From Porphyra umbilicalis (taxonomy: Eukaryota > Rhodophyta > Bangiophyceae > Bangiales > Bangiaceae): DNA of 35,932 bases. Below are positions 11,049-30,159 of this stretch, piece by piece. A program made the position numbers and the translations under genes. How positions within the stretch are numbered: the first letter of the stretch is position 1; the number at the start of each line of letters is the position of its first letter. The notes beneath the pieces were generated by a model, which had not been told where the DNA came from, did not search any database, and worked only from the letters and a program-made list of their open reading frames with translations. The DNA is taken from the NCBI GenBank assembly GCA_002049455.2, contig KV919270.1, positions 1 to 35,932 of the forward strand, read 5' to 3'.

Positions 11049-11068
11049 CCCTGTCCTAAAGGCCAGGG
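11049..11068. repeat. 20-bp inverted-repeat arm, right
   Basis: CCCTGTCCTAAAGGCCAGGG is the exact reverse complement of 7399-7418 and directly abuts the GAATCACAGCC terminus at 11069, with no base between them. The abutment suggests either insertion of the 3.1-kb element exactly beside another element's end, or that this motif belongs to the outer end of the KDZ-family terminus. Confidence 0.55.
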
Positions 11069-11159
11069 GAATCACAGCCTTCGATGTACTGCAGCAGTAC
11101 ATCGAAGGCCAGATGCAGTACATCGAAGGCAGATCATCCAATGGGGTGACGTGCTCCAG

Positions 11160-12880
11160 ATTTGAATGAGGTGTGTGTTCCGGTAGCTTTCAGCCTCATA
11201 TTTGGCCGTGCATCCCTGGATGGGCGGGGTGCGAATGCACGTGTGTGGCCTCACCTTGTTGCGCCGTCTTTTTGCAGAGCTCTGGTGGCACCACCCCCCC
11301 CGCCTCCCCTGAGTGCCTCATGGCAGCTTCGACTTGGCGCGAGCCCCCGTGTTACCTCCCAGTGCGCCCCGCCGGCCTTCGCCGCTTTCTCTCCCCCGTT
11401 GCAACGTTGCCGTTGTTGGCTGCCACCGCTGCCTGCGGAAGGTGGAGGGGGTGGTGTCGCCACCGCTCCTGTGGCCCCCCCCCCTGTTCGCCCACTTTTT
11501 TTTCGGCTGGCGGGGCTCCCTCCCCTCACGCCACCAACAGCGACGCTGTCACCCCCGCCGCTGCTATCTTTGCTGGCGCCGCTGCTGCCGCCGTCCCGTC
11601 TCCTCTCCGCCCACGACCCCTGTGCATACCCCGAAGAGTTGGCGACTTGAGGGTCCGCACATCCCCAGATGGTCTTGGCATGGTGCACGGCGGGGGGGAT
11701 GCGCGGCGGGAGGGTGGGGCTGTGGGAGCGTGGGCACGAACACGGTGAAAGAGGTGTCGCTGTTGGTATTTAGTGGGGAGGTGAGGTTCTGACTGGGCAT
11801 GTTGTGGGAGCTCGGGGTAGTTGTCGTGAGTCGGTGGGTGGTTGCATCGCGAGGAAGCAAAACGGCTCAGGACAGACCCCCCTCTGTCGCCACTTCCAGA
11901 CCACTGTATTCGGAGGCGATCGCTGACACTGCTGAATCCAGTGGATCAGACGTCCGTCGGATTACACTGCACAATCCAGTGGATTCCCCAGATGCGCTTC
12001 ACTACACGTCTACAGCGGCTCCCATAGTTTTTTCCAAGAAAAAAAGCCGTTACACATCTCGCACAAGGTCGTGTGTCCTTTCTGACGAGTTGTGAAAAGA
12101 ACAGAAACCGTCAGGTAGTCTTCTTCACGTGTTCCTTCCTTTCTGCCGTGTTGCCCTGTATCCAGGTGCATGGAGGACTTCTGGGCCAAACAGGAGCAAA
12201 ACACAACTTTCTTGGAGAGGGTTGTGAGTGGACCTTTTAAGGGCGCTGGTGACGGCAATGTAGGTTGTTTTCATCAGATGCACATCCTTCTTACCTTTTC
12301 TGCCCTCCAAAGGCGACAGTGACCAGAAACAGGCATCACTTCCCCAGCCTGCCATATCCACCTACACGCCAGCTTCTTTAGGGTACTGGGATGTGCGTGT
12401 TCTAAACCCTCAGTATAGCCCAAAAGATGGAACTGGAGCAGCCACAGGAAGCCTAAAGGACTATCTCTGTGACGGACTGTCCCCAGACCTCCCAATCGAC
12501 GTGCGCGAGCTGCCTATGGAGGTCCCAGGGTACCAAAGCACCCTGAGTCACTCCCAAAGTAGCCAAGCGCATGCGTTTATGGTACACCGCCCCCCCATGG
12601 GTAGTGTACTGCCATTGAGCACCAGCTCCTGCCGGCAACACATAGCCACAGACAAGAGAGTCAAAAACACAACTACGAGAAGAGCGTGTGCACATCGATT
12701 TTGATAGGCAAAAAAGCACTACAGCAGCAGCCCGGGACAGGCACAAAGCGGCACAATCCCGCACCGACGAGATCACCCCCCCCAGCAAGCCCTGACCACC
12801 ACGCAGGAGCCCACGCCCGCCCCAGCCCGGGGGCAGCGGTAGGGGGGAGGGGCATCCGGGGACGGCGCCAGCTGCGGCGG
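11160..12880. other. Interior of the 3.1-kb element, no recognised gene
   Basis: A minus-strand frame (11688-11251) with Ser/Gly/Lys-rich content (ADPQVANSSGYAQGSWAERR) and a plus-strand frame at 12393-12704 (MRVLNPQYSPKDGTGAATG) are the least repetitive candidates. Neither shows a known motif or clear exon borders. The block is less GC-rich than the minisatellite that follows. Confidence 0.3.
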
Positions 12881-12884
12881 GGTC

Positions 12885-13955
12885 GGCGACAGCCGCGGGC
12901 GGTGGCTGCCGGGGGCGGCGGCAGCAAGGGGCGGCGGAAGCGGCAGGCGGGGGCGACGGCGGCGGCAGCGGCCGGGGGCGGCGGCGGCAGGCAGGGGCGG
13001 CGGGGGCAGGCGGCTGCGGCAACAGCGGCGGCCCGCGACAGCGGCGGCGGCGGCGACGGCGGCGGCGGCGGCAGCCGCCGAGGGCGGCGGCGGCGGCAGC
13101 GGCCTGGGACGCCGGCGGTGGCAGTGGCCGGGGGCGGCGACAGCAGCCGGGGGGAGCTGCGGCGGCGGCTGCAGCGGCCCGGGGCGGCGGCAGCGGCAGC
13201 AGCCGGGGGCGTCGGCGGCGGCAGTGGCCGGGGGCGGCGGCGGCAGCGGCCGGGGGCGTCGACGACGGCTGTGGCCTGGGGCGACGGCGGTGGCAGTGGC
13301 CGTCGGCGACGGCAGCAGCCAGGGGCGGCGGCGGCGGCGGCAGGCAGGGGCGGCGGCGGTAGGCGGATGCGGCAAAAGCGGCCCTGGGCGGTGGCAGCGG
13401 CAGCGGCCTGGGGCGGCGGCGACGGCAGGCGGGGGCGACGGCGGCTGCGGTAACAGCGGCGGCCGGCCACGGCGGTGGCGGCGGCGGCAGCGGCGGCCAG
13501 GGGCGGCCGCGGCCGGGGGCGGCGGCGGCGGCAGGCGGGGACGACGGCGGCAGCAGCAGCCGGGGGAGGCGGCGGCGGCAGGCGGCGGCGGAGGCAGCGG
13601 TTGGGGGTGGCGGAGGCGGCGGCGGCGGCAGCCGCTGGGGGCGGCGGCGGCGGCAGCAGCCTGGGGTGGCGGCGGTGGCAGTGGCCGGGGGAGGCGACAG
13701 CAGCCGGGGGCGGCGGCGGCGGCGTCAGGCAGGGGCGGCGGCGGCGGGCGGCTGCGGCAACAGCGACGGCCGGAGACGGCGGCGACGGCGGCGGCAGCGG
13801 CGGCCGGGGGCGGCGGCGGCGGCAGCTGCAGCGGCCCGGGGCGGCGGCAGCGGCAGCGGCCGGCGGCGTCGTCGGCGGCAGTGGCTGGGGGCGCGGCGGC
13901 AGCGGCTGGTGGCAGCGTCGGGCGCCGCTGGGCGAGGGGCGGGGTTGACGGCGTG
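12885..13955. repeat. Extreme GGC-rich minisatellite
   Basis: Roughly 1.07 kb of degenerate repeats of GGCGGCGGCAGCGGCC and GGGGGCGGCGGCGGCAG, period about 27-33 bp. With almost no A or T, most frames lack stops, giving long Pro/Ala/Arg or Gly frames on both strands that are compositional artefacts. The G-rich strand is plus and is full of possible G-quadruplex tracts. Confidence 0.85.
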
Positions 13956-14063
13956 GTCGTGGGGGCGTGCATGTGGGGTGCTGCAATGGGCTGTGTGTCG
14001 GGCGATACAGTACGTTGCAGCGGCTGCGACATCTTATGTTTTGGCGGCAGGCTACTATATTTT

Positions 14064-14314
14064 GCTGACAGCGCTGTCGGCTGATGAGTGGCGATATCTG
14101 ATTGGTGCATATGCCTTCGATCCGCTGCAGGTTGCCTTCGATCCGCTGCAGCAGCAGATCGAAGGCTGTGATTACCCTTTAGTTGCCCCCCCGGCAACTA
14201 GGGTAATCACAGCCTTCGATCTACTGCTGCAGCGGATCGAAGGCAACCTGCAGCGGATCGAAGGCATATGCACCAATCAGATACCGTCGCTCATCAACCG
14301 ACAGAACTGTCAGC
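14064..14314. repeat. Head-to-head palindrome of two transposon ends
   Basis: Arms 14064-14177 and 14201-14314 (114 bp each, about 7 mismatches, no gaps) flank a 23-bp spacer, itself partly palindromic (AGTTGCC...GGCAACT). Each arm is a complete terminal repeat: GGGTAATCACAGCC, three CTGCAG...ATCGAAGG motifs, CATATGCACCAATCAG. The terminal faces point at one another. Confidence 0.93.
14202..14280 (+). repeat. Left terminal inverted repeat of the large element
   Basis: Contains CCTTCGATCTACTGC, then two direct copies of CTGCAGCGGATCGAAGG, then ATGCACCAATCAG. The three iterated motifs, one inverted and two direct, are probable transposase-binding sites. Confidence 0.88.
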
Positions 14315-14389
14315 ATTGCGATGTGGCCCGCCATGGCTGGCACATGCTGTCGCAGCAGCTGCAACGTATCGGCCCCACACCGCAGGCGG

Positions 14390-15300
14390 AGCAGCTCCCC
14401 AGCCGTCGTTTCCCGCCGTCCCCGTCGCCCACCCGACAGCCCGCGCTGGCGCCCCCGCTCGCCACGACCGCGCTACCACGCTCCGCCCCCCCCCCCGCCC
14501 CCCCCCCGCTGGGCCATTGCCCGCCTACTGGGCACCGCTGTCCTGCGGCCGCCCCCCCCCCCCGATCTACCTGTCATTGCTCCCTGTCCTCTCCGTCGCC
14601 CGCCTGCCCACGGTGCCCGCCGCGCTGCCGGCCACGCTCACCTCGACCGCTCCGTGCTCACCCCTGCCGCGCCACCCCCCCCCCCCCCCCGCCGGGCTTT
14701 TGCCCGCCGACTGGGCGCCGCCGTCCTGTGGCGGCCCTCACCCCCGGGCTACCTGTCAGCACGTCTCGCCGTCCCCGACATCCGCCCGCCCGCGCTACCC
14801 GCCACGCTCGGCCCCCCGCCCGCCCTCCCCCGCCGGGCTGTTGCTCTCCGACTCGGCGCCGCTGTACTGCGGCCGCCCCCCGCCCCCTGGTCTAACCGGC
14901 ATTGCACCTCGTCCTCTTCGTCGCCTGCCCGCCCACGGTGCCCGCCACGCTGCAGGCCTTGCTCACCTCGACCGCTCCGTGCTCACCCCTGCCGCCCCAC
15001 CCCCCCCCCCCCCCCGCCGGGCCTTTGCCCGCCGACTGGGCGCCGCCGTCCTGTGGCCGCCGTCACCCCCGGGCTACCTGTCGGCGCGTCTCGCCGTCCC
15101 CGCCGTCCGCCCGCCCGCGCTGCCCACCGCGCTGCGCCGTACTGCCTACTACTTGTCGTTTCTCCCCTTCTTCCTGGTCGTCCGCCCGCCCGTGGTTCCT
15201 GGCGCCCTGCCGGCTGCGCTCGCCGCGCCTGCGCAGCGCCCTCGTACCGCAGCGTTGTTGGGGCCGCCCTGTGTTACCTGTCGGTGCTATCCGCCACCCC
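14390..15300. repeat. 325-bp direct repeats in the transposase 5' leader
   Basis: The block GCTCACCTCGACCGCTCCGT, with the Pro-coding C run and CCGACTGGGCGCCGCCGTCC that follow, occurs at 14636 and again at 14961, 325 bp apart. Shorter half-units (ACTGGGC...CTGCGGCCGCC) recur between them. The region is C-rich, with runs up to about 18 C. It reads openly in several frames and is probably the 5' leader rather than coding. Confidence 0.65.
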
Positions 15301-15407
15301 CGACATCAACCAGCAAGCCCTGGCGGCCACGCTGCCTGTCGCATTTGCCGCGCGTTGCCGTGCCGTTGCCGTGCTTGCCTTGTTTTCGGCGGACGGCTCT
15401 CGTCCGT

Positions 15408-18400
15408 ATGTCTCGTGCGCCGCTTGACGAGCTGGACTCGTCGGACGACGGCGAGCCACTTTTAGTAGCGTCCGCGCCGCACTCCTCGGACGGCACCCCG
15501 CTCTCGGGGAGCGTTCCGTCTGTAGAAATCTGGGCGGGTGGCAGCTCAGCCTGCTCTGCTCCCAAAAGTGTGGCTGCTCCCCAGGATGACGGCCTGTTTC
15601 CAGTTGGAGGCGTAGACGACGGTAGTGGCGGCGGCGGCGGCGGCGGCGGCGTCGACGGCGACGTCGACGGTAACGGCGGCGGCGGCGTCGGCGGCGGTGA
15701 CGGCGACGGCGGCGGCGGCGTCGACGGCAGTGGCGGCGACGGCGGCGGCGTCGGCGGCGACGGCGGCGCCGTCGACGGCAACGGCGTCGGCGTCAACGTT
15801 GGCGGCGGCGACGGCGGCCGCGACGGCGGCCGCGACGGCGGCGGTGGCGGCGGCATTGCCAACAACGTGCCAGCTCTTGGTGCTCCGTCCGCTTCCAACC
15901 CTCGCTCGCGTCAGCGCTTCCAACAAGCTCGTCCTGGGCCACGTCATGGCATGGGTGGGCGAAAGAAAGGCACAGGTATGCGTACTAAGGAGAACTTTGG
16001 ACGGGGACTGCGCCGTGCGTTGGGGTCTTTCCTATCGGCCACCCCAATCGATACCCTCGCGTCCGAGTGTGGTGTCTCCCACGCTGCTGCAGAGGAGGCC
16101 GTCGCCTTGCTGCTGTCGTGGTCCGAGGTGGAGGGCAGGGAGCAGGTTTGGCTGGTGGGTGGCGTTTTTGGAGTCGTCGCGCGGTGGGGCGAGTGGCGAC
16201 GAGACTCCCTCGGGGAGTGTGCCAGTGCCTGTGTGTGGCTCGCGGCGGATGGGAGGTGCAGGTGCACCTGTGTCGGAGCCAACGTACATCAAGACAACCA
16301 CATCCACGAGCGGCCAACCAGCTGCCAACATGCCGGCGCACTAGATGCGGCGCTGCAGGAGATTGCCTTTGCGCTGGGCGTGCCGCTACATGACGTCAAG
16401 ATTCACTTGGGCAGGAAGGCCCAGCAACCCGGAGATGAGGACGGGCAGGGCTCTGCGGGCGACCCTATGACCTTTCATGTCGTGGGAGCGCTGTACGTCG
16501 CCGTGTGTCCGTCACCGCTTGGCGTCCTGCCTGTTCCTGTGTACCTGACGCCCACGCGCTCCTCGTGCGGCTTCTGCCCAGGAGCCCGCACTAGGGTATG
16601 CTCGCACTTGAGCGTTGCGCAAGAGTGCGGGGCGCCGCAAGCTGCCCACCGAGCCTCCGCACAGAGCACAGTGCGCGGCCTGGAGGTGTCGTCGGTGTCC
16701 GAGCTGCCCATCCCCTTGCTCGACTGCGTCGCCGCTGTGAGGTTGAACGCGGACCTGTGCACGAAGGCAACTACCGGCGGGGTGTTTGTGCTGCCGGCTC
16801 CATCCTCCTGCTCCTTGTGCACGGAGCGTGGCAGGCATCATAAGGTGTCCGGCTTTTCCAAGACGGAGGGTGCAATCGCGTGCACGCGCGGCTTTTGCAA
16901 CATGGAGGTGCACTTGGCCAAGTGCTCTTCCTGCCTGCAGTGGGTGTCGCGTGACGGCCGGGAGGATCACGTGGTGCTGCTGTCTTTGGCTTCCGCCGCC
17001 ACGGTGACGTGGGTGCGTTCCATGGCGCTGCAAACATCCGAGGGCGCCGCGCTCACCACGTGTACGACGCGGTGGCTACGCGCCGTCCGCAGGGAGACAG
17101 TCGCCGGTGTCCTGCCGCGTGGCTGCCGTACCCGTGGCGGTCGCGTGCTGCGCAACCTGGTTCTCATGGGCTTGAAACTTATGGTGTCGGACATGCCTCC
17201 CGCTCTGTTCACGTGTGTGCACTGCATGGACAGCGATGGGCGGTACAAGATTGTGTCTGCCGATTCGATATGGGTTGGCTTTGGCAGCGGGTCGGACCAC
17301 GTGCGCTTTGAGCACGTATCGGCGGCCGTACCGGAGAACCGGCGGGCGGTCAAGGCCGCTTATCTCGTGCGCGGGGAGAGCGTCCGCCGCGTCATACGTG
17401 ACGTGATGAAGCCGCGCAAAGAGGTCAAGGTGCTGGCGAGGACGCTGCGCGCGTCGGAGCTCGCGGTTGGTGTCCTCCTTCCTGGCGCCCTTCCTGCCGA
17501 CCGGACCCTGGTCGCCACCCCCGCGGAAAGCGCGATCGGCGCCCTCCTGGGCACTGTGTTCAACATCGGAGATGCGGCGTCCAAGCTGCTCTCGTCCGTG
17601 AGAGCGGGGCTCGCTACGTACAAGACGCGCAGTCGCGCCGAGGCGCAGCGTCGAGCAGGAGCCGCTCAACATCTGGCGGAATTCATTGCCAAGCAGAAGG
17701 GACGGTCGACGGGAGCGACGGCGGCTGTTACGGGATCATCTCCCGCACCCCAACCAACAGCGGCGCCTACTGGCAGGGCTTCAGCGCCAACTTTACCGAC
17801 CGGTCTCTCTGCAGCGGCAGCAATGAGCGGGGCGCCGGCAGCAACGCCACCGACACGCCCACCTCTGCCTGCGGCGATGGCGACGGGGGGGGCTTCGGTG
17901 GCAACGCCGCCAACGCGTACGTCTGCATCAACACCTGCGGCTACGGGCGGGGCGTCGGCGGCAACGCCGCCAACGCGTCCGTCTGCATTTACACCTGCAG
18001 CGACGGGCGGGGCGTCGACGGCAACGCCGCCAACGCGTCCGTCTGCATCTACACCTGCAGCGACGGGCGGGGCGTCGGCGGCAACGCCGCCAACGCGTCC
18101 GTCTGCATTTCCACCTGCAACGACGGGCGGGGCGTCGGCGGCAACGCTGCCAACGCGTCCGTCTGCACCTACTCCTGCGGCGACGGGCGGGGTGTCGGCG
18201 GCAACGCCGCCAACGCGTCCGTCTGCACCTACACCTGCGGCGACGGGCGGGGCGTCGGCGGCAACGCCGCCAACGCGTCCGTCTGCATTTCCACCTGCAA
18301 CGACGGGCGGGGCGTCGGCGGCAACGCTGCCAACTCGTTTGTCTGCATCTACACCTGCAGCGACGGGCGGGGCGTCGGCGGCAACGCCGCCAACGCGTCC

Positions 18401-20483
18401 GTCTGCATCTACACCTGCAGCGACGGACGGGGCGTCGGCGGCGACGCCGCCAACGCGTCCGTCTCCATCTACACCTGCAACGACGGTCGGGGCGTCGGCG
18501 GCAACGCTGCCAACGCGTCCGTCTGCACCTACACCTGCGGCGACGGGCGGGGCGTCGGCGGCAACGCCGCCAACGCGTCCGTCTGCACCTACACCTGCGG
18601 CGACGGGCGGGGCGTCGGCGGCAACGCCGCCAACGCGTCCGTCTGCACCTACACCTGCGGCGACGGGCGGGGCGTCGGCGGCAACGCCGCCAACGCGTCC
18701 GTCTGCATTTCCACCTGCAGCGACGGGCGGGGCGTCGGTGGTAACGCTGCCAACGCGTCCGTCTGCATCTACACCTGCAGCGACGGGCGGGGCGTCGGCG
18801 GCAACGCCGCCAACGCGTCCGTCTGCATCTACACCGGCGGCGACGGGCGGGGTGTCGGCGGCGATGGGTGCTGTGTCGACGGCGACGGGGGGGGTGTCGG
18901 CGGCGACGCCACCGAGGGCACCGACAACGGCACCTGGGGCAGCCGGTGGTTCGCTTCCTCGTGTGCAGCGCGTCGACGCTGCCCAGCGCACTGGCAGCAA
19001 GGGAAAGCGTCCCGCCTACGGTGAGGGGGCGAAAGGCAAGCGGCGGAAGGCGGATTGCGGTCGGCAGCCGTTCAAAGCCGGCAAGGGGGACGCCGACGCG
19101 GACTCACCCTTCCTCGCCGCCCAGGTTGCTATCCTGGGAAAGGACGCGCGGAGGGAGCTGCTTTCGTTTGTCACCGCCATCACGATTGACAGCGTCGTGC
19201 TCCCGTTTCGTGCCAGCCAAGTTGGGGCGGTGAGGAGTCTGGCAGCCGTACTTTCGGGCAGCAACCACCAGCAGGGCATCACAGAGCTGCTTGCGGCGTC
19301 GACATCCTCCACCGAGCTCCCAGAGACTGACGAGCGCAAGCCCATCGTCGACATGCTCCGTGAACTGCGGTTTGTGCAGCTCGGCATGCGCGCGGCTAGC
19401 TGCCTCTTTGCGTCCCTGCCTGCTTTGGTGACTGCCTTGTCCACCACACTCCATTGCGTCGCTGACGCCATCGACAGCTTCCTCCGCGAGTGGCAGAACG
19501 GGCCCGAGAAGGCGGTCGAGTTCGAGCGGCTGTGGAAGTGCGGGGGGCGCTCCCAGGAGGAGATGGCGGCGGATTTCAAGAAACGCTTCCCATTGGCCTC
19601 GGGGCGTCACCAGCACACGGGGACGTGCGCGCCGTCACTCCCCCAGTGCAGGCCGGAGCCGTTCTTGTGGGAGGAGGTGTTGTCCACGGGCATGTGTTCA
19701 AAGCACTACGCGAAAGCGCACAAGTTCTCCCCGGGCGCGATGACGATCTGCTGCGGCTGCAAGCACCCGCTCATCCTCGCCTTCACCGTGCTCGACAGGA
19801 AGGAGGCGCCGCAGGTGCTCCTTAACATGCTGCTGACGCGCTTCGCCCGCATCCCAAGCTTCCTCATTTACGACTTTGCATGCGGTGCGTTCCGTGTGGC
19901 GCTCGGCAAGCTTGGGTGGATGTTGATGGACTGTACGGTGGTCTCCGACCGCTTCCACATCTTCAATCATCTTTGCTCGGACGCGTTCGACCCGCGGTCG
20001 TACGCGGCGATGGACGCGGTGGACTCGGGGGCGCCGGAGCAGCGCAACGCGCCTATCAGGCGCATCCAGACGACGCTCCAAGGCATGGGCGTCGTCCCCT
20101 ACGCCAGCTTGCTCGCCTACCAGACGGCCATCTTGAACCACGAGGCCCAGGTCAAGTGGAGCCTCGGAGTCGAGCGGCTACCGGACGACGTCGACCTGGC
20201 CGGCGAGTACTTTTGTCGGTTTGACTGCCCCTGTTGTGATGAGCCCCCCACTCCCTCCCCGCCGACACGCTCATCACCGAGCAGCTCGTCCGATGGTGAG
20301 GAAGACTCGAGTGGCAGTGAGTCAACGACAAGCGTGGGGAGTCGTGGTCGTCTCTTGAGTGGTGGGGGGGGCGGGGGGAAGGGCTCGACAGCCTCCTCTG
20401 AGCATATGTCTGTGTCTGTTTCGGAGACCAGCAGCTCTTCGAGTGCGGCCTCTGGGAGCGACGACAGCACCTTGGGCGCGTAG
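15408..20483 (+). CDS. KDZ-superfamily (Zisupton/HMGXB3-like) transposase
   Basis: DDE transposase of the Kyakuja-Dileera-Zisupton group, about 1691 residues from the start chosen here, MSRAPLDELDSSDDGEPLL. The same frame is open back to an ATG inside the terminal repeat (14268), but that 380-residue extension is Pro-rich repeat. Order from the chosen start: Ser/Asp-rich head, Gly/Asp run, a helix-turn-helix-like stretch (FGRGLRRALGSFLSATP...), a SWIM-like CGFCPGARTRVCSH, a CxC5-like cluster (CSLCTERG...CSSCLQW), CVHCMDSDGRYKIVSADSIW with likely first Asp 619, about 16 copies of a 20-residue repeat, then YDFACGA (Asp 1489), SDRFHIFNHLC, and APEQRN (Glu 1544) followed by a helical RIQTTLQGMG region. 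It ends in an acidic Ser-rich tail. The frame is intact and intronless, so it may be active. Confidence 0.83.
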   Translation: MSRAPLDELDSSDDGEPLLVASAPHSSDGTPLSGSVPSVEIWAGGSSACSAPKSVAAPQDDGLFPVGGVDDGSGGGGGGGGVDGDVDGNGGGGVGGGDGDGGGGVDGSGGDGGGVGGDGGAVDGNGVGVNVGGGDGGRDGGRDGGGGGGIANNVPALGAPSASNPRSRQRFQQARPGPRHGMGGRKKGTGMRTKENFGRGLRRALGSFLSATPIDTLASECGVSHAAAEEAVALLLSWSEVEGREQVWLVGGVFGVVARWGEWRRDSLGECASACVWLAADGRCRCTCVGANVHQDNHIHERPTSCQHAGALDAALQEIAFALGVPLHDVKIHLGRKAQQPGDEDGQGSAGDPMTFHVVGALYVAVCPSPLGVLPVPVYLTPTRSSCGFCPGARTRVCSHLSVAQECGAPQAAHRASAQSTVRGLEVSSVSELPIPLLDCVAAVRLNADLCTKATTGGVFVLPAPSSCSLCTERGRHHKVSGFSKTEGAIACTRGFCNMEVHLAKCSSCLQWVSRDGREDHVVLLSLASAATVTWVRSMALQTSEGAALTTCTTRWLRAVRRETVAGVLPRGCRTRGGRVLRNLVLMGLKLMVSDMPPALFTCVHCMDSDGRYKIVSADSIWVGFGSGSDHVRFEHVSAAVPENRRAVKAAYLVRGESVRRVIRDVMKPRKEVKVLARTLRASELAVGVLLPGALPADRTLVATPAESAIGALLGTVFNIGDAASKLLSSVRAGLATYKTRSRAEAQRRAGAAQHLAEFIAKQKGRSTGATAAVTGSSPAPQPTAAPTGRASAPTLPTGLSAAAAMSGAPAATPPTRPPLPAAMATGGASVATPPTRTSASTPAATGGASAATPPTRPSAFTPAATGGASTATPPTRPSASTPAATGGASAATPPTRPSAFPPATTGGASAATLPTRPSAPTPAATGGVSAATPPTRPSAPTPAATGGASAATPPTRPSAFPPATTGGASAATLPTRLSASTPAATGGASAATPPTRPSASTPAATDGASAATPPTRPSPSTPATTVGASAATLPTRPSAPTPAATGGASAATPPTRPSAPTPAATGGASAATPPTRPSAPTPAATGGASAATPPTRPSAFPPAATGGASVVTLPTRPSASTPAATGGASAATPPTRPSASTPAATGGVSAAMGAVSTATGGVSAATPPRAPTTAPGAAGGSLPRVQRVDAAQRTGSKGKRPAYGEGAKGKRRKADCGRQPFKAGKGDADADSPFLAAQVAILGKDARRELLSFVTAITIDSVVLPFRASQVGAVRSLAAVLSGSNHQQGITELLAASTSSTELPETDERKPIVDMLRELRFVQLGMRAASCLFASLPALVTALSTTLHCVADAIDSFLREWQNGPEKAVEFERLWKCGGRSQEEMAADFKKRFPLASGRHQHTGTCAPSLPQCRPEPFLWEEVLSTGMCSKHYAKAHKFSPGAMTICCGCKHPLILAFTVLDRKEAPQVLLNMLLTRFARIPSFLIYDFACGAFRVALGKLGWMLMDCTVVSDRFHIFNHLCSDAFDPRSYAAMDAVDSGAPEQRNAPIRRIQTTLQGMGVVPYASLLAYQTAILNHEAQVKWSLGVERLPDDVDLAGEYFCRFDCPCCDEPPTPSPPTRSSPSSSSDGEEDSSGSESTTSVGSRGRLLSGGGGGGKGSTASSEHMSVSVSETSSSSSAASGSDDSTLGA
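17895..18860 (+). repeat. 60-bp minisatellite inside the transposase
   Basis: About 16 tandem copies of a 60-bp unit (for example GGGGCGTCGGCGGCAACGCC then GCCAACGCGTCCGTCTGCAT). In frame it encodes near-perfect copies of ATPPTRPSASTPAATGGASA. Copies differ by few substitutions and all keep the 60-bp length, so the frame survives copy-number change. The array sits between the first and second catalytic Asp. Confidence 0.95.
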
Positions 20484-20630
20484 GGGGGGGTTCCTTTCTT
20501 GAGCGCATAGGGACGTTCCTTTTTCGTTTGTACAGAAGACGTTGTTCTCGTGCTTTTGTTTCTTTCAAAAGCCAACAACACCAACCACACCGGGAAGAAC
20601 CCGTTCCAAAAAAAGGGCAGCCCACCTCAC

Positions 20631-21593
20631 GTAAAGCGGCTATCGTCCATGTGGTCTCCACCGCTTGTATGGCGTCATACAAGGACTGAAGGACTTGGCT
20701 GTCCACACACCCTTGGTCGTCGCCATGCCAGCACCCCACCCGCTTCCCCCGCACCCAAGTTGGCGGACTCACCAGAAAGAAAACAAGCAGGCAGTCATAC
20801 CGACCCACGAGACGCTGTAGCCGTGGTGCTCCACGCCACTCACCGGGGCCGGCGGACAAGCATGCCAAACCGACCGACGGCACACCATGGGCCGTCATCG
20901 TGAATGTCAGCTCCCTGTCCGTCCCCGCCGTACTCACGGTACAGCCGAGACGCACTGCCCAGGCTACCAACGTGCTCTCACCCGGCTTGCCGTAGAACAT
21001 GGCCCATGCAGCAGATTGGAGCCCAGCGCGAAGGAGACCGCGTGGGATCCGATTGTCGGTGACAAACAGGGGCTGCAAGGTGGGGTAAAGCGATCGCTGG
21101 AAGGGGATCGAGAAGGACTCGGTGATCCGCAAGATGAGCTAGACACAATCAATATGGCAGGCTACCTGCTTAATCATGCCTAATAACATACGATTTCCAT
21201 ATCTAAGTTTGACAAGTGCGAGTACAATTCCTTTTCCTGCACCTGACGATTCGTGGTGTGTTGTCGCTCACCTCGATCTACCGATGGAAGCGCATCGCAA
21301 GACGGACCTCTCATCGCCCTGGCGGCTACTCTATAAGACCAAAATCGCTCGGTGGACGTCTTGACGCCTCCGGGCGTACTCTGGACAAAGAAAATGCCTC
21401 CAGTGTCCCTATTTTTCGGCCAATCACGACAAACGGGCCGCAACTGAGCAGCCGCATGGCGCTGCCACAGCACCGGCGAACGTGGTACTTGAAGACAGCT
21501 GTGAGCCTCCTTCTGCGCGCATTTTGTCATCTGCTCGATGCCGGCGAGGCTGAGAGACAGACAGTTCCCAGGCAGCGCACCCCGGACACCCAT
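20631..21593 (-). CDS. Possible multi-exon gene of unknown function
   Basis: Minus strand, tail-to-tail with the transposase. A central exon, 21138-20773, is bounded by TGTGTCTAG and CTG|GTGAGT and is exactly 122 codons: LILRITESFSIPFQRSLYPT..., then RGLLRAGLQSAAWAMFYGK and ...RYDCLLVFFL. An 87-bp intron leads in phase to 20685-20631 (SLYDAIQAVETTWTIAAL), which ends at TTAC|GTGAGG. Upstream, a frame ending CGTCAG|GTGCAG at 21243 joins in phase across a 104-bp intron, though a better-looking GAG|GTGAGC donor nearby does not. Composition is balanced, unlike non-coding frames here. No domain is recognised; first and last exons are not defined, and the 3' end may overlap the transposase 3' region. 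Confidence 0.35.
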
Positions 21594-21599
21594 CTTTAT

Positions 21600-23680
21600 T
21601 CGCTATTACAAACAACCGTGGAGGAGCCTACATCTACATGATGGCCACAAACGGGACGGATAGCCATGCACGGCAACCATAGTGCTTTGAAAAGGGATTC
21701 TATGAGCTCATGCTCTGCCTGGGCTGCTCAGGCAGCTCAGGTGTGTGGTGCTTCCTTCATGCAGATGCAGAACGCGCGTTGCAGCCCACAAGCTACCAGC
21801 GGGTATCCTGGCCCTTCTTTATTTGTTTTAATGACGGGGGGGAGCCTATGGAAGCCAACGCTCCCATGAAGTTGCGCAGGGGACGGTTCGGGCGGACTGG
21901 TCAGTGGGTGGAAGTTCTGGCTGCTGTGACCTTTGGGCGGGCATACTGGCATGAAGAAAGCGCATGAGCTTCAAACCAAGCATACGACCATTATCAGCAC
22001 CCTTCAAAGGTCCAGTAACGAGGCAGTCGGAAGGATTTGTGTTTTTGTCGTGTGGGGCTCGTCGGAGCTGCCCAAAGAACCAAGATGTGGAACATGACTG
22101 CCGAAGGATGAAGGATGGGAGCAGTGTACGAAAAACAGTTCCTGATTTCTCCATGGCTTGTCAGGAAGGATAGAGTACATGGTAGGAGATTGGTCATGGT
22201 GTGATTCCTTTGGGAATACAACGGGAACCGCCGTAGGCGGGGAGTGAAGCGCAAGGATGCAATCTCTGAACAATGCAGTGTCAGCGAGTGCATGTGATCC
22301 ATTCGATTGGGCAGTGCCAGTGACGATCTCCCGGTTACACTATGATTCTGTTGCGTTTTTGGGGGTCCGTCTGCTGGTGACGTCTGCATCAAAGCACATG
22401 TCCGACACTCGCCCGCTCCAAGGTACCAACTCTCTCCCTAGAGAAGCCATACCTAGTGCCCGATTGTCTCTCTCAGCTGGCTGGTCCAATCAATACCCTC
22501 ACTGATGCAGCGGGGCAACCGCCCCCGGCCCCCACGCCTCGCCAACCCCTCAACAGGTCGCGACATCATGTCCGCGTCGACGACCGGTAAGAGTCGCCAG
22601 ACAGCGGGATGGGAGATAGTAGCACTGTTGACACCGTCAACGAAATATGCCGCGCCTGGGCCACACCCATGCCTTGGTGGCATCATCACACAGTCCTGAT
22701 TCACCCTCCTGCACTCTGTCCCGCCGCCGCACGGGCACGGGGGTGGGGGGGGGGGAGAAACGCCTACCGAGGACGGGAAAGCGGCGAACGAGCGGGAGTC
22801 GACCGATATAGACAGGCTGGGGACCAGGGGCAGAAGCGACGGATCACAGCAGGGTTGGGCGGACTGGTGGGGGCGGCCAGAGTCGACGCGGGAGAATGAA
22901 GACCGGGTATGGCATCTGGGGGAGATTAATGCGCCGAAACGAGAAGCACTGAGGCAGGGCAAAGGCTGGAAAACCAAACTGGGGGCGAGAATGTCGGCCG
23001 GGGCCGACGCCCGTGGAATCGACGGTGGGAGCGGCCGACGGCAGGGGTGGCCGACGGTGGCGGTGGCCGTTGACGGAGGCGGCTCCTTCCGAGATGGCGG
23101 GCACCTGGGCGGCCTGGGAGGCTGTCGGAGGCTGCGACCGTAGCGGGAGCGGCGATAGCGGGGATGGCGAGAGCGGGGGCGGCAGACAGTGGTGTTTGCT
23201 GACGGCGGCGGAGGCGGAGGTCGCGAGCGGCCGACGGCTGGTGCGGCCGACGGTGGCGGTGACCGGCAACACCAGCCGCTGGTTTGGGAGTCGCGTGGGC
23301 AAGAGCGGCCGGTGGCGGCCAGGGTGCGGGGGGTGGCAGCGGGGGCGGGGGAGCAAGAAGCCGGTGGCGTACGCCTTGAGCGTGCACTGTTCCTGCTGAT
23401 AAATACATGAATAAATGGAAAATTATGGGCATGGAAACCGATCAAATGGACAATTCAAGTTCCTCTAGTATTTTTCGCCGCATTGGTCGTTCTATTTCTA
23501 GCTGCGAGTGCTTCACGTCAAGCATCTGTGTTTCCCTCATGCCGTCGGCAACCGCCAAGGTTGCGGCTGGGGACGGCGCAACGTGATGGCTGAGTACGGC
23601 GCAACGTGACGGCTCATGACCGCATAACGTCCCCATTGGCTGGACGTGCGGCGCTGACGTTTCGCAGACACTGGGAGCGC
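21600..23680. other. Interior of the large element without a supported gene
   Basis: Balanced-composition frames occur (plus 21710-21967, ending GRAYWHEESA; minus around 22700-22505, AYFVDGVNSATISHP bounded by AGAGTGCAG and a GTGAGG donor), which may be exons of the minus-strand gene to the left. The part 22720-23340 is G-rich with irregular GCCGACGGTGGCGGTGG-like repeats. Two GGCGCAACGTGA motifs, about 24 bp apart, lie near 23576-23612. Confidence 0.35.
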
Positions 23681-23909
23681 CCCGCGAGACTGTTGCTCAG
23701 GGAGTGGAGCTGTCAGTGGTGGGAGAGGTTCCAACGGGTGTTCGCCGGCACTCGCTGGCACTGACTTTGACGATGGTTGACTCTGTCACGTGGGCCCCGC
23801 GAGACTGGTGCTCAGGGAGTGGAGCTGTCAGTGGCGGGAGAGCTGTCGACGGTGCTCGCTGCCACTCGCTGGCACTGCCTTTCACGATGGGTGACTCAGT
23901 GCCGTTATG
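23680..23909. repeat. 115-bp tandem duplication upstream of the helicase
   Basis: CCCCGCGAGACTGTTGCTCA at 23680 recurs at 23795 with one change, and similarity extends over the whole 115-bp unit (GGAGTGGAGCTGTCAGTGG, CACTCGCTGGCACTG, GGTGACTC). It lies about 40 bp before the leader exon of the helicase and may be promoter sequence duplicated in place. Confidence 0.8.
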
Positions 23910-23945
23910 GGCTAGGCGTACAGTTCGCATCGTCCTCGCAGCGGG

Positions 23946-24192
23946 ATGGCTGCCACGACGACGAGGACATTCGTCCCGCTCGGCGCGTTGCTTGCGCCGC
24001 AGCTTGTACGTCCTCTGAGAAGTCCATGCGTGCGCGTTTTCAGTGTGCAGGTATGCGTGTGTGACTGTTTTCGCTGCTCGTATGTGCTGTCGCGTCCATT
24101 GCCTGGTTCTGCCAATCTCTCCATGCTCCTTTATCACGCGGTGCTAATAGTGCCGGTCTCCGAGTTTTCTCTTTCTGTGCAGCTGGCTGGCC
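23946..24192 (+). other. Putative leader exon and 5' intron of the helicase
   Basis: CAG|GTATGC at 24050/24051 and TTTCTGTGCAG at 24182 define a 132-bp intron just before the helicase start. The exon before it contains an ATG (23946) encoding an Arg/Leu-rich, acid-free stretch like a mitochondrial presequence (TFVPLGALLAPQLVRPLRS). That frame does not join the helicase in phase with these borders, so it is either untranslated leader or joined through another donor. Confidence 0.4.
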
Positions 24193-25753
24193 ATGGATCC
24201 TTCCCCAGGGGCACACGATGAAGACCGATGGGCACTCGATGCGTCGCAGCAGCGGGCATTGTCGCTTTTTGAGACGGGCGGCAACGTTGCCCTTTTGGGG
24301 CGGGCCGGTTGCGGCAAGAGCGTGGTGATGCGACGCATGGTCTCAAAGGCCATTGAGAAACATGGCCGAGAGGCGGTCGCCGTCACGGCGTTGTCGGGGT
24401 CTGCGGCCCAGATTTTGAGTGGCCAGACGCTCCACTCCCTCTTCGGGATGGACACCCGCCCTCTGTCCCGAGAAGCCTGGCTGCGCGAGACGCTGAGGCG
24501 CCCGGAGGTGTGCCGACGACTGAGCCGCCTCCGGGTGCTGTTCATTGACGAGGTGTGCACGGTGCCGTCGTCGCTGTTCTCTCGGCTCGGCTACGTCATG
24601 CGGCGGGTAGCCCCACCGCACATGCAGCACCTACCATTCGCTGGTTGCCAGCTCGTATGTACGATTGATATCCACTCGCCTGCTTTTCGTTTGCGTCTGT
24701 CGTCTGCCGGTGGGCTCCTGGGTTCTCGTTGGCCGCTGATGCACTGTCCACTTACTGAAGCCCTTCTCATTACCGCTATTTCCTGACGAACGCTCTCGTA
24801 TCACCCTCACTACGTGTTTCTGTTCGTGTGCAGGCGCCGGTGACCCTCTCCAGGTCGCGCCTGTGAAGGTCACAGAGAGCTCCGTCGACCGCATGGTCTT
24901 CCAGTGCGCCACGTGGCGGGACTGCTTCGAGCGCGCGGCGGGCAAGGTCATCTGCCTCACAGGCAGCCACCGGCAGCGGGACGTGGAGTTTCAGCGCGTG
25001 TTGGACCGGCTGCGCTGGGGGCGCGTGGGCGCGGCTGTCATCCAAAAGATCAACGCGACCGGGACGGCCAGCATCTCTGGGTCCGTCACGCAGCTGCGCA
25101 TCAAGAAGACTTCCATGCAGCTCATCAACGAGGAGCGGCTGGCCCAGATCGAGTCTCCCTCTGTCGTCTTCACGGCGACGGACGAGATCCTGACCAACGA
25201 CGAGAGCTTGGTCGAGACTGCCGTCTCCTCGTTGCGGTCGTCCGTGGATCTGACGGTCGTCTTGAAGCTGAACGCGCTTGTCATCCTTACGCGGAAGCTG
25301 GGCGATACTGTTCCGGGCTCACGCGGCGTGGTGAAGCGGTTCATCTGTGCCGGGGACCAGGGGGGGAGCACGGTGACTGAAGTGGAGTGTGATTTCGATG
25401 GGAAGCTTGTGGTGGTCGGCCGCTCGCGTTTCTCTGCATACAACTCGTCAGGGACCGAGCTGGCCTTTTGCGAGCAGCTCCCTATTTTGCTTGGATGGGC
25501 TATAACCGTGCACCGCGCCCAGGGCTTTACGCTGGACGCGGTGCAGATTGACTTCCAACTTGATACGTGGACGACGGCGGGCCTTGTGTACACGGCTCTG
25601 TCGCGCGTGCGGTCGTTTTCGTCTCAGTGTGTGAAGGGCTTGCGTAGGGACCTCATTCAGGTCAGTCGTTGCTCTACCGCCTACTATGAGAGGCAGCTTG
25701 CCGAGGATAACATCGACCCCGAGGAAGATGGGCGACCGCCGATTGAGCTGTAG
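24193..25753 (+). CDS. PIF1-like SF1B DNA helicase (two exons)
   Basis: ATP-dependent 5'-to-3' helicase of the PIF1/RecD-like group, expected to unwind DNA at replication or recombination intermediates. The start GGCCATGG is an ideal eukaryotic context. Exon 1 (24193-24658) and exon 2 (24834-25753) join across a 175-bp GT-AG intron (GTACGA...GTGTGCAG) to give 461 residues. Motifs: DASQQRAL (Q motif, residues 16-23), GRAGCGKS (Walker A, 36-43), LFIDEV (Walker B, 116-121), QLVCAGDPLQVAPV spanning the splice (motif III), HRAQGFTLD (382-390) and YTALSRVRS (about 407-415). All core motifs are present. The intron sits inside motif III, and only this splice choice restores AGDPLQ. It lies within the large transposon, convergent with the next gene (97 bp between stops). 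Confidence 0.9.
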
Positions 25754-25850
25754 GGATGCTGTTATCTCTTCTCTTTGGCTCGTGTATCTTTTCCTCCAAA
25801 GGCCCCTTCTATCGCATGCAAAAAAACAAGCATGCTCCCTTTTAGAGGTG

Positions 25851-28286
25851 CTACGCAGCAGACACAAAACGAGCATTCCACAGCACGACCAGTCGCCGAT
25901 GCTCGCCATTGGTGCCTTCTTGCAGGCGACGCATCGTCTTCGGGTACAACAAATTCTTGGCATTGAAGTGTGTCTGCAGCAGGTACTCGTACGCATCCGT
26001 CATGTAAAGCAGCTCCATGGCTTGGTAGTCCTCGTCCAGGCCCGACTCCAAGACCTTGACGCCGTACACAGTCACGGCTGGCATATGCCGGGTGACCATC
26101 TCGCCCAGATTCCCGAGAGCAGGAGAGGGTCGCTCCAGTTGATGCAATGAGGCCTGCCCAAGTCTTCTGGCGTCGGCACCTGGGGGGCGGTCCCACAAGC
26201 ACACGCGTGGGCTGGGAAATCAAGCAACACCAGGCACAGAAGGAGGCAGACGTCATTGGAAAGTCAGAAGAGGTTCAATCCAGTAGACGTCAAGGAAACT
26301 GAGAACAAAGCAGACCGTCAAGACGAAGAGCACGTACCCAGTCATCCTCGCTTGCCAAACCAAAGTGTGAAGCGAGACGACGTTTAGCATGGTTTCTGTG
26401 AGTGCGCCATCACCCCACGCCCAGCACGGCACCTTATCGGCGCCGGCACCGAGCGACCGCACCTTGACAGCGACAAAGCGAGACGGGAGCGAGTCGGAAG
26501 GTACCAGGGTGCAGTTAACGTCGACGACGGCATGAGCAGCAACGCGGCCGTCATGTAGTAGCTCCTGGAATGGAGGGCACGAATGTATGGCTGCCGTACT
26601 GGCCGCCCAGCCCCGGGCGCGGCAGTCAAACGAAGCCTCTGTCACGGGCTCAGGCCGCCCGACAAGATGTGCATAGCACAGGTTGGCGTACGTGCCATAA
26701 ACTGGCCCTGTCGGAGCCGCGCCCCGCGCACCGCTGTCCACAACGGCACGGCGACGGGGGCGTCCCAAAGCGGCGCCCACATCAGCGTCTCCCTCCCGCC
26801 GCCGAGCCTGAGCATCCCCAAACCTGGGAGCATCCGAATCCAACGCCGCTGGCAACCCGCCGCTCCCACCCGAGCGGGGACCAGCACGAGCAGGTGGCCG
26901 CGAGCGGGGATCCTCGAGAGCGAGAGCATTTCCCGGACGCCCAATGCCACCGCTTCGCGCAGACTCGCCACTGCGCAAGCCCCCGCCTTGGGCCAGTGGC
27001 GGCGGCGGGCCCCCACGCCCGGCACCGCCCCCAGCGACCGCCCCGCCGCCGCGTGCGCCGCCGCCACTTTCCGCCAGTGACGGCGGCGGGCCCCCACGCC
27101 AAGCACCGCCCCCAGCGACCGCCCCGCCGCCGCGAGCGCCGCCGCCACTTTCCGCCAGTGACGGCAGCGGGCCCCTACGCCCGGCACCGCCCCCAACGAC
27201 CGCCCCGCCGCCGCTTGCGCCGCCGCCACTTTCCGCCAGTGACGGCGGCGGGCCCCCACGCCAAGCACCGCCCGCAACTACCGCCGCGCCGCCACGAGCG
27301 CCGCCGCCTTGCGTCAATGGCGGCGGCCGGCCCCCACGCCCGGCACCGCCCCCAACGACCGCCGCGCCGCCGCGAGCGCCGCCGCCTTGCGTCAATGGCG
27401 GCGGCCGGCCCCCACGCCCGGCACCGCCCCCAACGTCCGCCCCGCCGCCGCGTGCGCCACCGCCAGCTACTGCCAGTGGCGGCGCCGTGGCCCCACGCCC
27501 GGCACCGCCCCCAACGGCCGCCCCGCCGCCGCGTGCGCCGCCGCCTTGCGTCAATGGCGGCGGCCGGCCCCCACGCCCGGCACCGCCCCCAACGACCGCC
27601 GCGCCGCCGCGAGCGCCGCCGCCTTGCGTCAATGGCGGCGGCCGGCCCCCACGCCCGGCACCGCCCCCAACGACCGCCCCGACGCCGCGTGCGCCGCCGC
27701 CAGCTACTGGCAGTGGCGGCGCCGGGCCCCCACGCCCGGCACCGCCCCCAATGACCGCCGCGCCGCCGCGAGCGCCGGCGCCTTGCGTCATTGGCGGCGG
27801 CGGGCCCCCACTCCCGCCACCGCCCAAAACGACCGCTCCGCCGCCGCCCTCGCCGTCGCCATGAGGTGGCAGCGCGGGATCGCCGCCACGCTCTCCACCG
27901 CCTTGGGCAAGTTGTGGCGGGCTATCCTCAAGATCCTGCCCGCCCTCAGCGCCCGTCCCAATCCGAGCAGCAGCGGCTACCGGCGCAGTGCCTGCACCTG
28001 AACGGTTCTCATCAGCGCGGCTGGCATCTTCACCGCCAGCCCCGCACGCCCTACCCCCAACTCGGTTGGAGCCGGAGCCGGACGCGCCCCCGCCGCCACC
28101 GCCTTCTCCACCCCCGCCCTCGCCGCCACCGCCGTCACCGGCACCGCCCTCGCCGCCACCGCCAGCAGCGCCACTGGTGCCATTCTTGCTCTGTGACGAG
28201 TCCGTCTTTTTCGGGGCGGGCACGCGGTTGCCGCTGTTGCACTGCTCGACAATCCACTTGTAGAAGGCGTCGTTGATGTGCACCAT
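25851..28286 (-). CDS. Gly-repeat protein with novel C-terminal domain (two exons)
   Basis: Minus strand, starts MVHINDAFYKWIVEQCNSGN directly after the TAA of the upstream gene. Exon 1 (28286-26338) and exon 2 (26211-25851) join in phase over a 126-bp intron (GG|GTACGTG...TTTCCCAG) to give 769 residues. Residues 1-50 form a small helical head. About residues 55-450 are low complexity, mostly 26-27-residue repeats such as GGGARGGGAVVGGGAGRGG + PPPPL. The C-terminal 300 residues are complex: VYGTYANLCYAHLVGRPEPV, FVAVKVRSLGAGADKVPCWA, then ELLYMTDAYEYLLQTHFNA near the end. No known domain is recognised. Position, phase and closeness to the upstream gene suggest they work together or were once one protein. 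Confidence 0.68.
26960..27850. repeat. 78-81-bp tandem repeats coding for Gly-rich units
   Basis: On the plus strand the unit reads CCGCCAGTGACGGCGGCGGG or GCGTCAATGGCGGCGGCCGG, then CCCACGCCCGGCACCGCCCC. About 11 copies; spacing is 81 bp at 27071/27152 and 78 bp at 27311/27389, always a multiple of three. On the coding (minus) strand this gives 26-27-residue Gly/Arg/Ala/Pro units. Confidence 0.88.
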
Positions 28287-29447
28287 TTAAACGATGAGCG
28301 CGAGGGCCGTGGCGACGCGCATCTGCGACCGGTTCGCCATCTTGAGCGCGACGAGAGTGAAGGGCTTGGTGGGGCGGGTGGCCAATGATGGGACCTTCAC
28401 GGTCACGCCCAGGGTGACCACGGGGGCGAGCTGCTCGTAGACAACTTGTGTGATGGACAGATTCTGCTTGCAGTAGTACGCCATGAGGTCGAAGAACCTC
28501 TCCAAGTCGGCCAGCTTGACCCGCCTACGTTCGCCGCCGCACAGCTTCCGCCCGACATCACGCAAGAGTGTTGCCTCCACCGCGTGCTCCTTCTTCTGTG
28601 AGGCGGCCATCGCCAATAGGTGCTCCCGATGAGATGCGACCGCGTTTGCTCGCGCGTCCCTCTGGGCTCGCGACAGCGGGCCCTCGCCGTCGTCTTCGGC
28701 TGGGAGTCCCGATCCTACCAGCGCCGGGACACGGATGCCTTGAGGCAGAGGAGGAAGAACCGGTGCCGACAGGGTGGGAGGCGGGGAGGAGCCGCCCGCA
28801 GCGTGGCCGGGAGATGGGCCGGCGTCAGGAGTGGGTGGTAAGCCGTCGGCGGGGGGGGGGAGAAGAGGTCCAGCGGCGGCAGAGGGTGGTGAGCCGTCGG
28901 CGGCAGCGGACGGTGAGCCGTCGGCGGCAGCGGGCGGTGAGCCGTCAGCGGGGGGACAGGGAGAAGGACCGAAAGTGGCAGCGAGGGGTGCGCCGGCGGG
29001 GGGGGCACATGATGAGCGGGTAGTATGGGGGAGGGAAGATCCGGTCGCGGCGGGGGGGCGTGAGCCAAGGACAGAAGACATGCTACGAGGCAAGGCAGCC
29101 TCGAGAGACGCCATAGACGAGAGGTCGCCCCCGCCACTGACGCTCCCCGCAGAGGTGTCCATACCTGCAAACTCCTCATCAATCGAAGAGCCATGCCCCG
29201 GCGCGCGGCCAGCTCGCGCCGAACTAACAAAGCCATCAAAGAGCATCTTCATCCCGCGCGCGCCCGCCGCGCCTGCCACCGAGCTGTGTTGTGTGACACC
29301 GGTGGCATAGAGCAGTGCGTACTTGCCATCCCCTCGACGCGCGCAACAGACGAAGCTATAACGCTCGGCACTCATCTCGTCCAGTTGCTTGAGCGAGTAC
29401 CTTGCGGCCTTCGCAATAGCCACCAGGTCATCCGAGAAAAATGCCAT
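28287..29447 (-). CDS. Unknown transposon-borne protein ending at a TAA|ATG junction
   Basis: Minus strand, 386 residues from MAFFSDDLVAIAKAARYSLK (start context CCATGG); the frame is open for another 34 codons upstream across a 51-bp repeat. The N-terminus is helical with a short SFVCCARRGDGKYALLYATG strand-like segment. A long Pro/Ala/Ser linker with repeated DGSPPAAA units follows. The C-terminal 130 residues are well ordered: LSRAQRDARANAVASHREHL, VKLADLERFFDLMAYYCKQN, then SITQVVYEQLAPVVTLGVTV and MANRSQMRVATALALIV before TAA. The next codon is the ATG of the following gene, in the same frame. No family is recognised. It may be the first half of one long protein. Confidence 0.62.
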   Translation of the reverse strand: MAFFSDDLVAIAKAARYSLKQLDEMSAERYSFVCCARRGDGKYALLYATGVTQHSSVAGAAGARGMKMLFDGFVSSARAGRAPGHGSSIDEEFAGMDTSAGSVSGGGDLSSMASLEAALPRSMSSVLGSRPPAATGSSLPHTTRSSCAPPAGAPLAATFGPSPCPPADGSPPAAADGSPSAAADGSPPSAAAGPLLPPPADGLPPTPDAGPSPGHAAGGSSPPPTLSAPVLPPLPQGIRVPALVGSGLPAEDDGEGPLSRAQRDARANAVASHREHLLAMAASQKKEHAVEATLLRDVGRKLCGGERRRVKLADLERFFDLMAYYCKQNLSITQVVYEQLAPVVTLGVTVKVPSLATRPTKPFTLVALKMANRSQMRVATALALIV

Positions 29448-29470
29448 GGGGTGCCGGGAGGGGGGTGCAG

Positions 29471-29572
29471 GGGGTGTGCGGGTGGACTCGCGCGGCATGA
29501 GGACGAAGGGGGCTCGTGCGGGGGGTGTGCGGGTGGAGTCGCGCGACATGAGGGTGAAGGGGGCTCGTGCGG
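29471..29572. repeat. 51-bp tandem duplication at the start of the unknown gene
   Basis: GGGGTGTGCGGGTGGACTCG at 29471 recurs at 29522. The unit is 51 bp (17 codons), so the minus-strand frame stays open and reads two copies of an RDSTRTPPARAPFVLMP-like peptide upstream of the preferred start. Confidence 0.75.
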
Positions 29573-29920
29573 GGGGTCGTCGCTACGCGCGAACACGTGC
29601 AGCGCGGCGACACGCGTCTGTGCTCGTCAAGAGGATTGCGCAACGCGCGGGGTGGGTGGGGCGCCAAGGAAAGCAGGCGATGGAGCAGGCTCGCCAAGTC
29701 AAAGCCGTCTTCAGGAACTCTGGCGAGGGGGGGGCGAGGGGATGGTGCCACCAGCAAGCTCGGCCAAGTCACGTGGACCCGGTCGAGGTGCGGGCGGAGC
29801 CCGCCCAATGGCCCATTCTGGGATGCACGGCCGATAATGCTGCACGAAACACCAATCCCAAAAGCCTGGGGGGCTAAAAGCCGCGGAACACACACCTGAA
29901 AGCGGTGCGGAACAACACAG

Positions 29921-29999
29921 CTGATTGGTTCATCACCCTTCGATGTACTGCATCTTGCCTTCGATGTACTGCTGCAGTACATCGAAGGCTGTGATTACC
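29921..29999 (-). repeat. Right terminal inverted repeat of the large element
   Basis: Read on the minus strand: GGTAATCACAGCCTTCGATG, the perfect palindrome CCTTCGATGTACTGC-A-GCAGTACATCGAAGG, another direct ATGCAGTACATCGAAGG, then GATGAACCAATCAG. Same length and layout as the left end, but with GTAC-type rather than CGG-type motif cores. Confidence 0.9.
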
Positions 30000-30159
30000 A
30001 CCTCACCCCCCGGTGGCGCAGAGTTTGCGCACCGGGGCACCCCCGTCTGCGTCTAATGCGGCGGCGGTGTCGGCGGCGGCGTCGCGACCGTCTTGATGTA
30101 CAGTACGTACCCAATATTACTTGTCCACCCCTATCCGTGGCCAATGCGCACGGTTGCTG

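Follow-up and report, generated by a model that had tools for sequence, protein, structure and literature searches.

A probable KDZ-superfamily DNA transposon with its own PIF1 helicase gene in the red alga Porphyra umbilicalis

Contig C510 of Porphyra umbilicalis, a bangiophycean red alga, was analysed over a stretch of 35,932 nt (the window), which holds a 15,812-bp element at 14195–30006 that encodes three proteins: a transposase, a PIF1 helicase and U. Other copies were sought throughout the assembly (83.8 Mb, 665 contigs), and the borders of the window's element were set by comparison with them. We regard it as very probably a KDZ-superfamily DNA transposon of the cut-and-paste type with three genes. 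Its features are listed below, with the strand where one applies.

14188–14194: left target site duplication, CCCCCGG, 7 bp
14195–14280, + strand: B end, 5'-CAACTAGGGTAATCACAG; an imperfect palindrome follows, as does a direct copy of a 15-bp motif
15912–20480, + strand: KDZ-type transposase, conserved with the copy on contig C71 from about 15912, within the open frame 14202–20480
24193–24658, + strand: PIF1 helicase exon 1 (GRAGCGKS and DEV motifs)
24834–25753, + strand: PIF1 helicase exon 2 (GDPLQ, VHRAQG and TALSR motifs), including the stop codon
25853–29549, − strand: gene U, convergent with the helicase gene; exon boundaries towards the 3' end provisional
28290–29549, about 26992–27861 and about 25853–26555, − strand: N-terminal part, Gly/Pro-rich repeats and conserved C-terminal part of U, respectively
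28287–28289, − strand: in-frame TAA stop that splits U in the window copy
29921–30006, − strand: A end, ...GTGATTACCACCTCAC-3', a perfect palindrome (16-bp arms) and a third copy of the motif
30007–30013: right target site duplication, CCCCCGG, 7 bp

The initial annotation, made from the window alone, had placed paired 79-bp termini at 14202–14280 and 29921–29999. These inverted termini are real (79 nt, 82% complementary), and the true borders lie further out, at 14195 and 30006, where the outermost letters are 5'-CAACTAGGG and ACCTCAC-3', respectively. The two ends are asymmetric yet related (B begins 5'-CAACYAGGG, A finishes ACCTCAC-3'), and the inner terminal inverted repeat (TIR) is common to both. 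Genome searches with the terminal sequences gave 19 matches from one end and 21 from the other, counts that include several short sub-matches and the window's own ends. Across copies the A end follows the consensus (G/C)TGAGGTGG(T/A)AA(T/C)CACAG, and the B end, in most copies, CAAC(T/C)AGGG(T/A)AA(T/C)CACAG.

Both ends could be placed for six elements, which we name by their contigs: C510 (15,812 bp), C71 (16,189 bp), C104 (21,123 bp), C79 (14,871 bp), C38 (2,603 bp) and C120 (6,286 bp). All six are flanked by exact 7-bp target duplications, each with a chance probability of ∼1e-4 (65.8% GC assumed). In C104 and C79 we read the 7-mer from the A-side flank and fixed it in a script before the B-side sequence was inspected, where it was later found. 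A duplication of 8 bp was considered and dropped; with fixed ends, read by eye, it fits at most two of the six elements (C510 and C71), whereas 7 bp fits every one. An 18.9-kb element spanning 11067–29999 was likewise dropped, although these ends are 86% complementary, because its flanks differ, whereas 14195–30006 has a matching duplication. A single end was found on six further contigs (A on C55, C329, C101 and C34; B on C181 and C134).

In all four large two-ended elements (C510, C71, C104 and C79) the transposase, PIF1 and U lie between the same ends. The proposal in the initial annotation that the helicase and the neighbouring unknown proteins are fixed parts of the element is thus borne out, and the assembly search that it suggested, with ends and proteins, recovers other large copies that keep the three genes together. 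Pairwise distances among transposases track those among helicases over the nine loci with both sequences (Mantel r 0.89; 0 of 20,000 permutations), and the correlation persists within the seven closest loci (4 of 5040 permutations). Ratios of nonsynonymous to synonymous divergence (dN/dS), which are rough here since many dS values exceed 1, are 0.17–0.25 for the transposase (six pairs), 0.18–0.34 for the helicase (10 pairs) and 0.28–0.42 for U (six pairs), and indicate that all three genes are under purifying selection. We count the helicase as part of the element because of this gene set between common ends, the co-divergence, the dN/dS values and the genome-wide linkage described below. Together, the data support the helicase and U as fixed parts of the window's element family.

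The PIF1 identity of the helicase, as first annotated, stands (PF05970, E 3.5e-14; 53.4 bits, the cut-off being 25.9); its gene is in two exons. The splice sites of the single intron were picked from frame and motif, and a database record for the C104 copy, P0030 (BU14_0188s0036), reads across at the intron place when compared by eye. In exon 1, GRAGCGKS and DEV are the Walker A and Walker B motifs. The best match in the PDB is the PIF1 entry 5o6b (E 1.9e-36), and Helraiser is also among the matches (E 6.9e-11).

Where the initial annotation had counted two adjacent unknown genes, there is a single gene, U. We rejected two separate genes on the evidence that the halves form one continuous frame in C71, C181, C79 and C104, and that, of the copies compared, the window's alone has the stop; all six others (C55, C181, C71, C79, C104 and C34) have a sense codon at this position. 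The window copy of U is therefore broken, and copies open at this point exist elsewhere. The frame contains in-frame tandem repeats of 78–81 bp (26992–27861), and a further conserved stretch lies at about 25853–26150. U has no Pfam match over the cut-off and none in NCBIfam, and its PDB matches are weak and fall within the Gly-rich part. Among 8000 database candidates scored, the one homologue is the C71 copy itself; protein P0027 (BU14_0138s0038, P. umbilicalis) is identical to the C71 query.

The short elements C38 and C120 share the ends of the large ones. Neither has a listed match to the transposase, PIF1 or U in the genome searches (for the transposase, 82 of 208 candidates scored), and direct tblastn with the three proteins found no match anywhere in C38 or in the examined parts of C120. 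By blastn, C38 matches the window's element at its ends only; tblastx adds only brief, scattered segments, none longer than 50 residues. Such a lack of the three genes would be expected if they are non-autonomous copies. A further short element lies within the window:

11060–14185: short, non-autonomous-like element bearing the ends of the large one (A core 11067–11142, B end 14101–14185)

This 3.1-kb element is marked by a second pair of the same inverted ends (11065–11142 and 14101–14178) and faces the large element head to head, the two B ends being separated by 9 nt (CCCCCCCGG). By blastn it matches the large element at its ends and in two weak inner pieces (67–75%). Its A terminus is degenerate and no target duplication was found, and it is excluded from the count of six above. 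Another inverted repeat in the window, at 8128–8185 and 8310–8367 (58-nt arms, 86% complementary), is possibly a further small element.

The transposase frame contains 60-bp in-frame tandem repeats (17880–18862), and its candidate catalytic residues lie at 17262 (D), 19872 (D) and 20037 (E). The last two fall in invariant columns of alignment A1, made from 11 members of the window's transposase family, and the first occupies an invariant column of the family alignment A4. The transposase was initially annotated as KDZ-type. That assignment holds by profile-profile comparison and has no direct Pfam match behind it: the window protein matches no Pfam family, PF18758 (KDZ) included, and none of the 11 family members matches Pfam KDZ at E up to 10, a setting at which the tool's filters still discard most weak matches. 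The genome has 28 PF18758 matches, of which 19 exceed the cut-off, and none coincides with a locus of the window's family. From the 19 over-cut-off loci we chose five proteins, all of which match PF18758, for a second alignment, A2. Comparison of A1 with A2 by hhalign gave a probability of 99.1 and E 5e-19 over 347 columns, with the motifs C-K, C.H, YD.AC, DR.H..H.CS and E in common; a negative control of A1 against helicases gave a probability of 0.1. By this homology to PF18758-positive proteins we class the transposase as a divergent KDZ, of a family that Pfam misses. In viral contigs there was no confirmed relative of the transposase.

It could be argued that the transposase is not KDZ and belongs to a distinct, KDZ-like DDE superfamily. 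The missing Pfam matches would fit such a view, as would the reach of the hhalign alignment, which spans the C-terminal core only and for that reason leaves the first candidate D unaligned to canonical KDZ; a longer alignment including this residue again aligned the core alone. The KDZ assignment must also be read against shallow alignments on both sides (Neff, the effective number of sequences, 2.3 and 2.2) and against two AlphaFold models in which the catalytic region, where KDZ should have an RNase H-like fold, has low confidence (mean pLDDT, the predicted local distance difference test score, 47.3 and 47.7). Nonetheless, the extent and significance of the alignment with its common motifs speak for KDZ, and the 7-bp duplication and large size are consistent with it. 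We therefore consider a separate superfamily highly improbable.

The association with PIF1 extends beyond the window's family. The transposase search listed 82 genome matches, from 82 of 208 candidates scored, and is hence a lower bound. These were divided at a score gap from 120.7 to 92.4 bits into 38 loci of the window's type and 43 more distant matches, with one row (C32:55859-56131) omitted as part of the C32 locus; the 28 PF18758 loci form another set. Both the split and the 12-kb limit used below were chosen after seeing the data, and expected counts assume uniform placement across the assembly. Pfam finds 125 PIF1 matches in the genome, and a search with the helicase protein finds 95. 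Among window-type loci, 18 of 38 have a Pfam PIF1 match within 12 kb (expected 1.3), and 22 of 38 by protein search (expected 1.0). The PF18758 loci show the same pattern, with 22 of 28 by Pfam (expected 1.0; 14 of the 19 over the cut-off and eight of the remaining nine) and 17 of 28 by protein search (expected 0.75). In 18 of the 22 linked PF18758 loci the PIF1 match lies at 4.5–6.5 kb on the same strand, although two of these 18, on C155, have one PIF1 match in common; this pair and the copies on C9 are non-independent. PIF1 thus seems to accompany two KDZ groups regularly in P. umbilicalis, though its inclusion between common ends is established only for the window's family. In the distant pairs the linkage is one of proximity, not of common ends, since their ends were not found.

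The third set behaves differently, with PIF1 within 12 kb of two of the 43 distant matches by Pfam (expected 1.5) and of one by protein search (expected 1.2). This KDZ-like set, which includes C238, C170, C136:98257 and C32:63324, has no PIF1 excess nearby. Several side observations were made in the course of this survey. Two KDZ–PIF1 units stand in tandem at C9:422491-435106, about 7.75 kb apart. For both metagenomic relatives, P0010 (transposase) and P0054 (helicase), the longest contig measures 14,172 bases, which hints at linkage outside P. umbilicalis. At locus L076 (C56:65000-67800), the canonical KDZ frame runs on at its end into an additional stretch, which from its motif may resemble an Ulp1-type protease.

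Several observations weigh against a fixed partnership of transposase, helicase and U. The close C510–C55 helicase pair has a dN/dS of 0.49. C55 and C11 carry PIF1 and U with no transposase among the matches listed; the initial annotation had held that a helicase and its neighbours apart from the transposase would count against it, and this case occurs here in a weak form, both copies being damaged (C55 by two stops in U and a helicase in two frames, C11 by one stop in each gene). C34 and C164 have U matches and no nearby PIF1 match. In C181 the transposase and helicase are 25.5 kb apart with another KDZ-like match between them, and the A end was not found. Genome-wide, 20 of the 38 window-type loci lack a Pfam PIF1 match within 12 kb, and 14 of the 38 have no helicase protein-search match within 30 kb. 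The ends of the distant KDZ–PIF1 pairs were not found either, and within the loci examined C56 and C90 gave no convincing TIRs (one 14-nt match in C56, none in C90). Finally, any role of the helicase in transposition is at present a proposal.

The helicase might be a mere passenger, whether a captured host gene or an inserted piece of a Helitron, present by chance in one KDZ family. PIF1 is common in this genome, and 25 of the 125 Pfam matches have a Helitron Rep at 12 kb or less. In the available part of a survey of Ectocarpus, giant transposons, KDZ elements included, bear nested insertions and accessory genes (PMC12477816). Against a passenger stand the transposase–helicase co-divergence, the purifying selection indicated by dN/dS and the recurrence of PIF1 in a second KDZ group at a regular distance and orientation. 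Moreover, of the 28 Helitron Rep matches in the genome, none falls within 12 kb of the 66 loci in the first two KDZ sets (one of the 43 in the third has one), and none of the 39 PIF1 matches associated with those two sets has a Rep within 12 kb; 61 of the 125 PIF1 matches are near neither these sets nor a Rep. Capture from a Helitron is thus unsupported, and a chance passenger of either kind is very unlikely.

If the helicase is instead a working part of the element, two roles may be considered. By analogy with DDE (aspartate–aspartate–glutamate) transposons in general, the transposase would bind the repeated, often palindromic 15-bp motifs of the ends, excise the element and join it to the target with a stagger of 7 bp; short elements that share these ends, such as C38, could be mobilised in trans, and the U protein is presumably an accessory factor. 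A helicase may be supplied because moving an element of 15–21 kb requires unwinding. It might act at the ends, opening GC-rich palindromic termini or G-rich secondary structure and thereby allowing assembly of the transposase and cleavage. PIF1 enzymes unwind G-quadruplexes, and 12 of the 19 ends examined carry a palindrome with 15–16 bp arms and no more than two mismatches (none in seven of them); the arm sequence varies between groups, and C510_A and C104_B, for example, are both perfect. This criterion is missed by the C71 ends, by C104_A and by both ends of C79, although C79 encodes the helicase. The same ends also occur on short elements and by themselves leave the link to large size unexplained. 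We consider action at the ends possible but somewhat doubtful.

Of the two roles, aid to donor-gap repair by long templated synthesis appears the likelier for PIF1. Cellular PIF1 drives break-induced replication in yeast. In an extended form of this proposal, red-algal KDZ transposition would be helicase-assisted, with the element's own PIF1 promoting break-induced synthesis across the donor gap that recreates the 15–21 kb copy; this would allow copy gain and giant size, and the partnership would predate the split of the two KDZ groups. In its entirety we advance this scheme only tentatively, as a speculative possibility.

The recurrent pairing of transposase and PIF1 suggests helicase-assisted movement of very large transposons, and the manner in which giant cut-and-paste elements are restored or multiplied becomes a directly testable question. 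PIF1 recurs beside the transposase in two KDZ groups; in one of these it lies inside the element and is under selection, and near the third set there is no enrichment. For annotation, a transposase next to PIF1, a 7-bp duplication and CAAC/CTCAC ends provide a signature for a family that Pfam overlooks.

To our knowledge, PIF1 is a mark of Helitrons among eukaryotic transposons, and we know of no DDE-type eukaryotic transposon, Teratorn aside, that brings a DNA helicase. The Porphyra element resembles the Helitron RepHel in encoding a PIF1-like helicase, and differs from it in having TIRs, target duplications and a DDE-type transposase and no Rep; the Helitron Rep family PF14214 has no match on C510. 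The accessible portions of the literature searched describe no KDZ element with a helicase, though an earlier mention may exist; this applies to the available parts of PMC12810828, PMC6431247, PMC5718144 and PMC7473861. At 7 bp, the target duplication falls within the 7–8 bp of the KDZ superfamily. Kyakuja likewise combines a KDZ-type transposase with 7-bp duplications, but its fungal families end in 5'-CA..TG-3', lack TIRs and carry a TET/JBP gene (PMC12730594), whereas the Porphyra element has a 79-nt TIR, CAAC..CTCAC ends, PIF1 and U. Zisupton and Dileera also have a KDZ transposase, and Zisupton has TIRs; their duplications are 8 bp long according to the available part of the same source. 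The duplication length fits Kyakuja, but TIRs are present, and we therefore assign the element to KDZ as a whole and to no subgroup.

Cryptococcus KDZ1–3, as described in the available part of PMC12810828, share the KDZ core and the presence of TIRs with the Porphyra element; they are ∼9–11 kb in size, have TIRs of 139–241 bp, duplications of 8 bp or 4–8 bp and a transposase with CxC1, and the word helicase is absent from the text. Giant KDZ elements are known from algae and reach 30.3 kb in Ectocarpus and 31.7 kb in Chlamydomonas, the latter having moved (PMC12477816, available part). Many giant families there carry additional genes, mostly of unknown function, and those of Ectocarpus often do so, while the same part of this source names no helicase for KDZ. 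A parallel in gene content is Teratorn, a piggyBac–herpesvirus fusion, which likewise unites a DDE-type transposase and a DNA helicase gene in one mobile unit. In the available part of its description (PMC6431247), the Teratorn helicase is one of ∼90 viral genes, with a polymerase and a primase among them, whereas that of the Porphyra element is of the PIF1 type and one of three genes.

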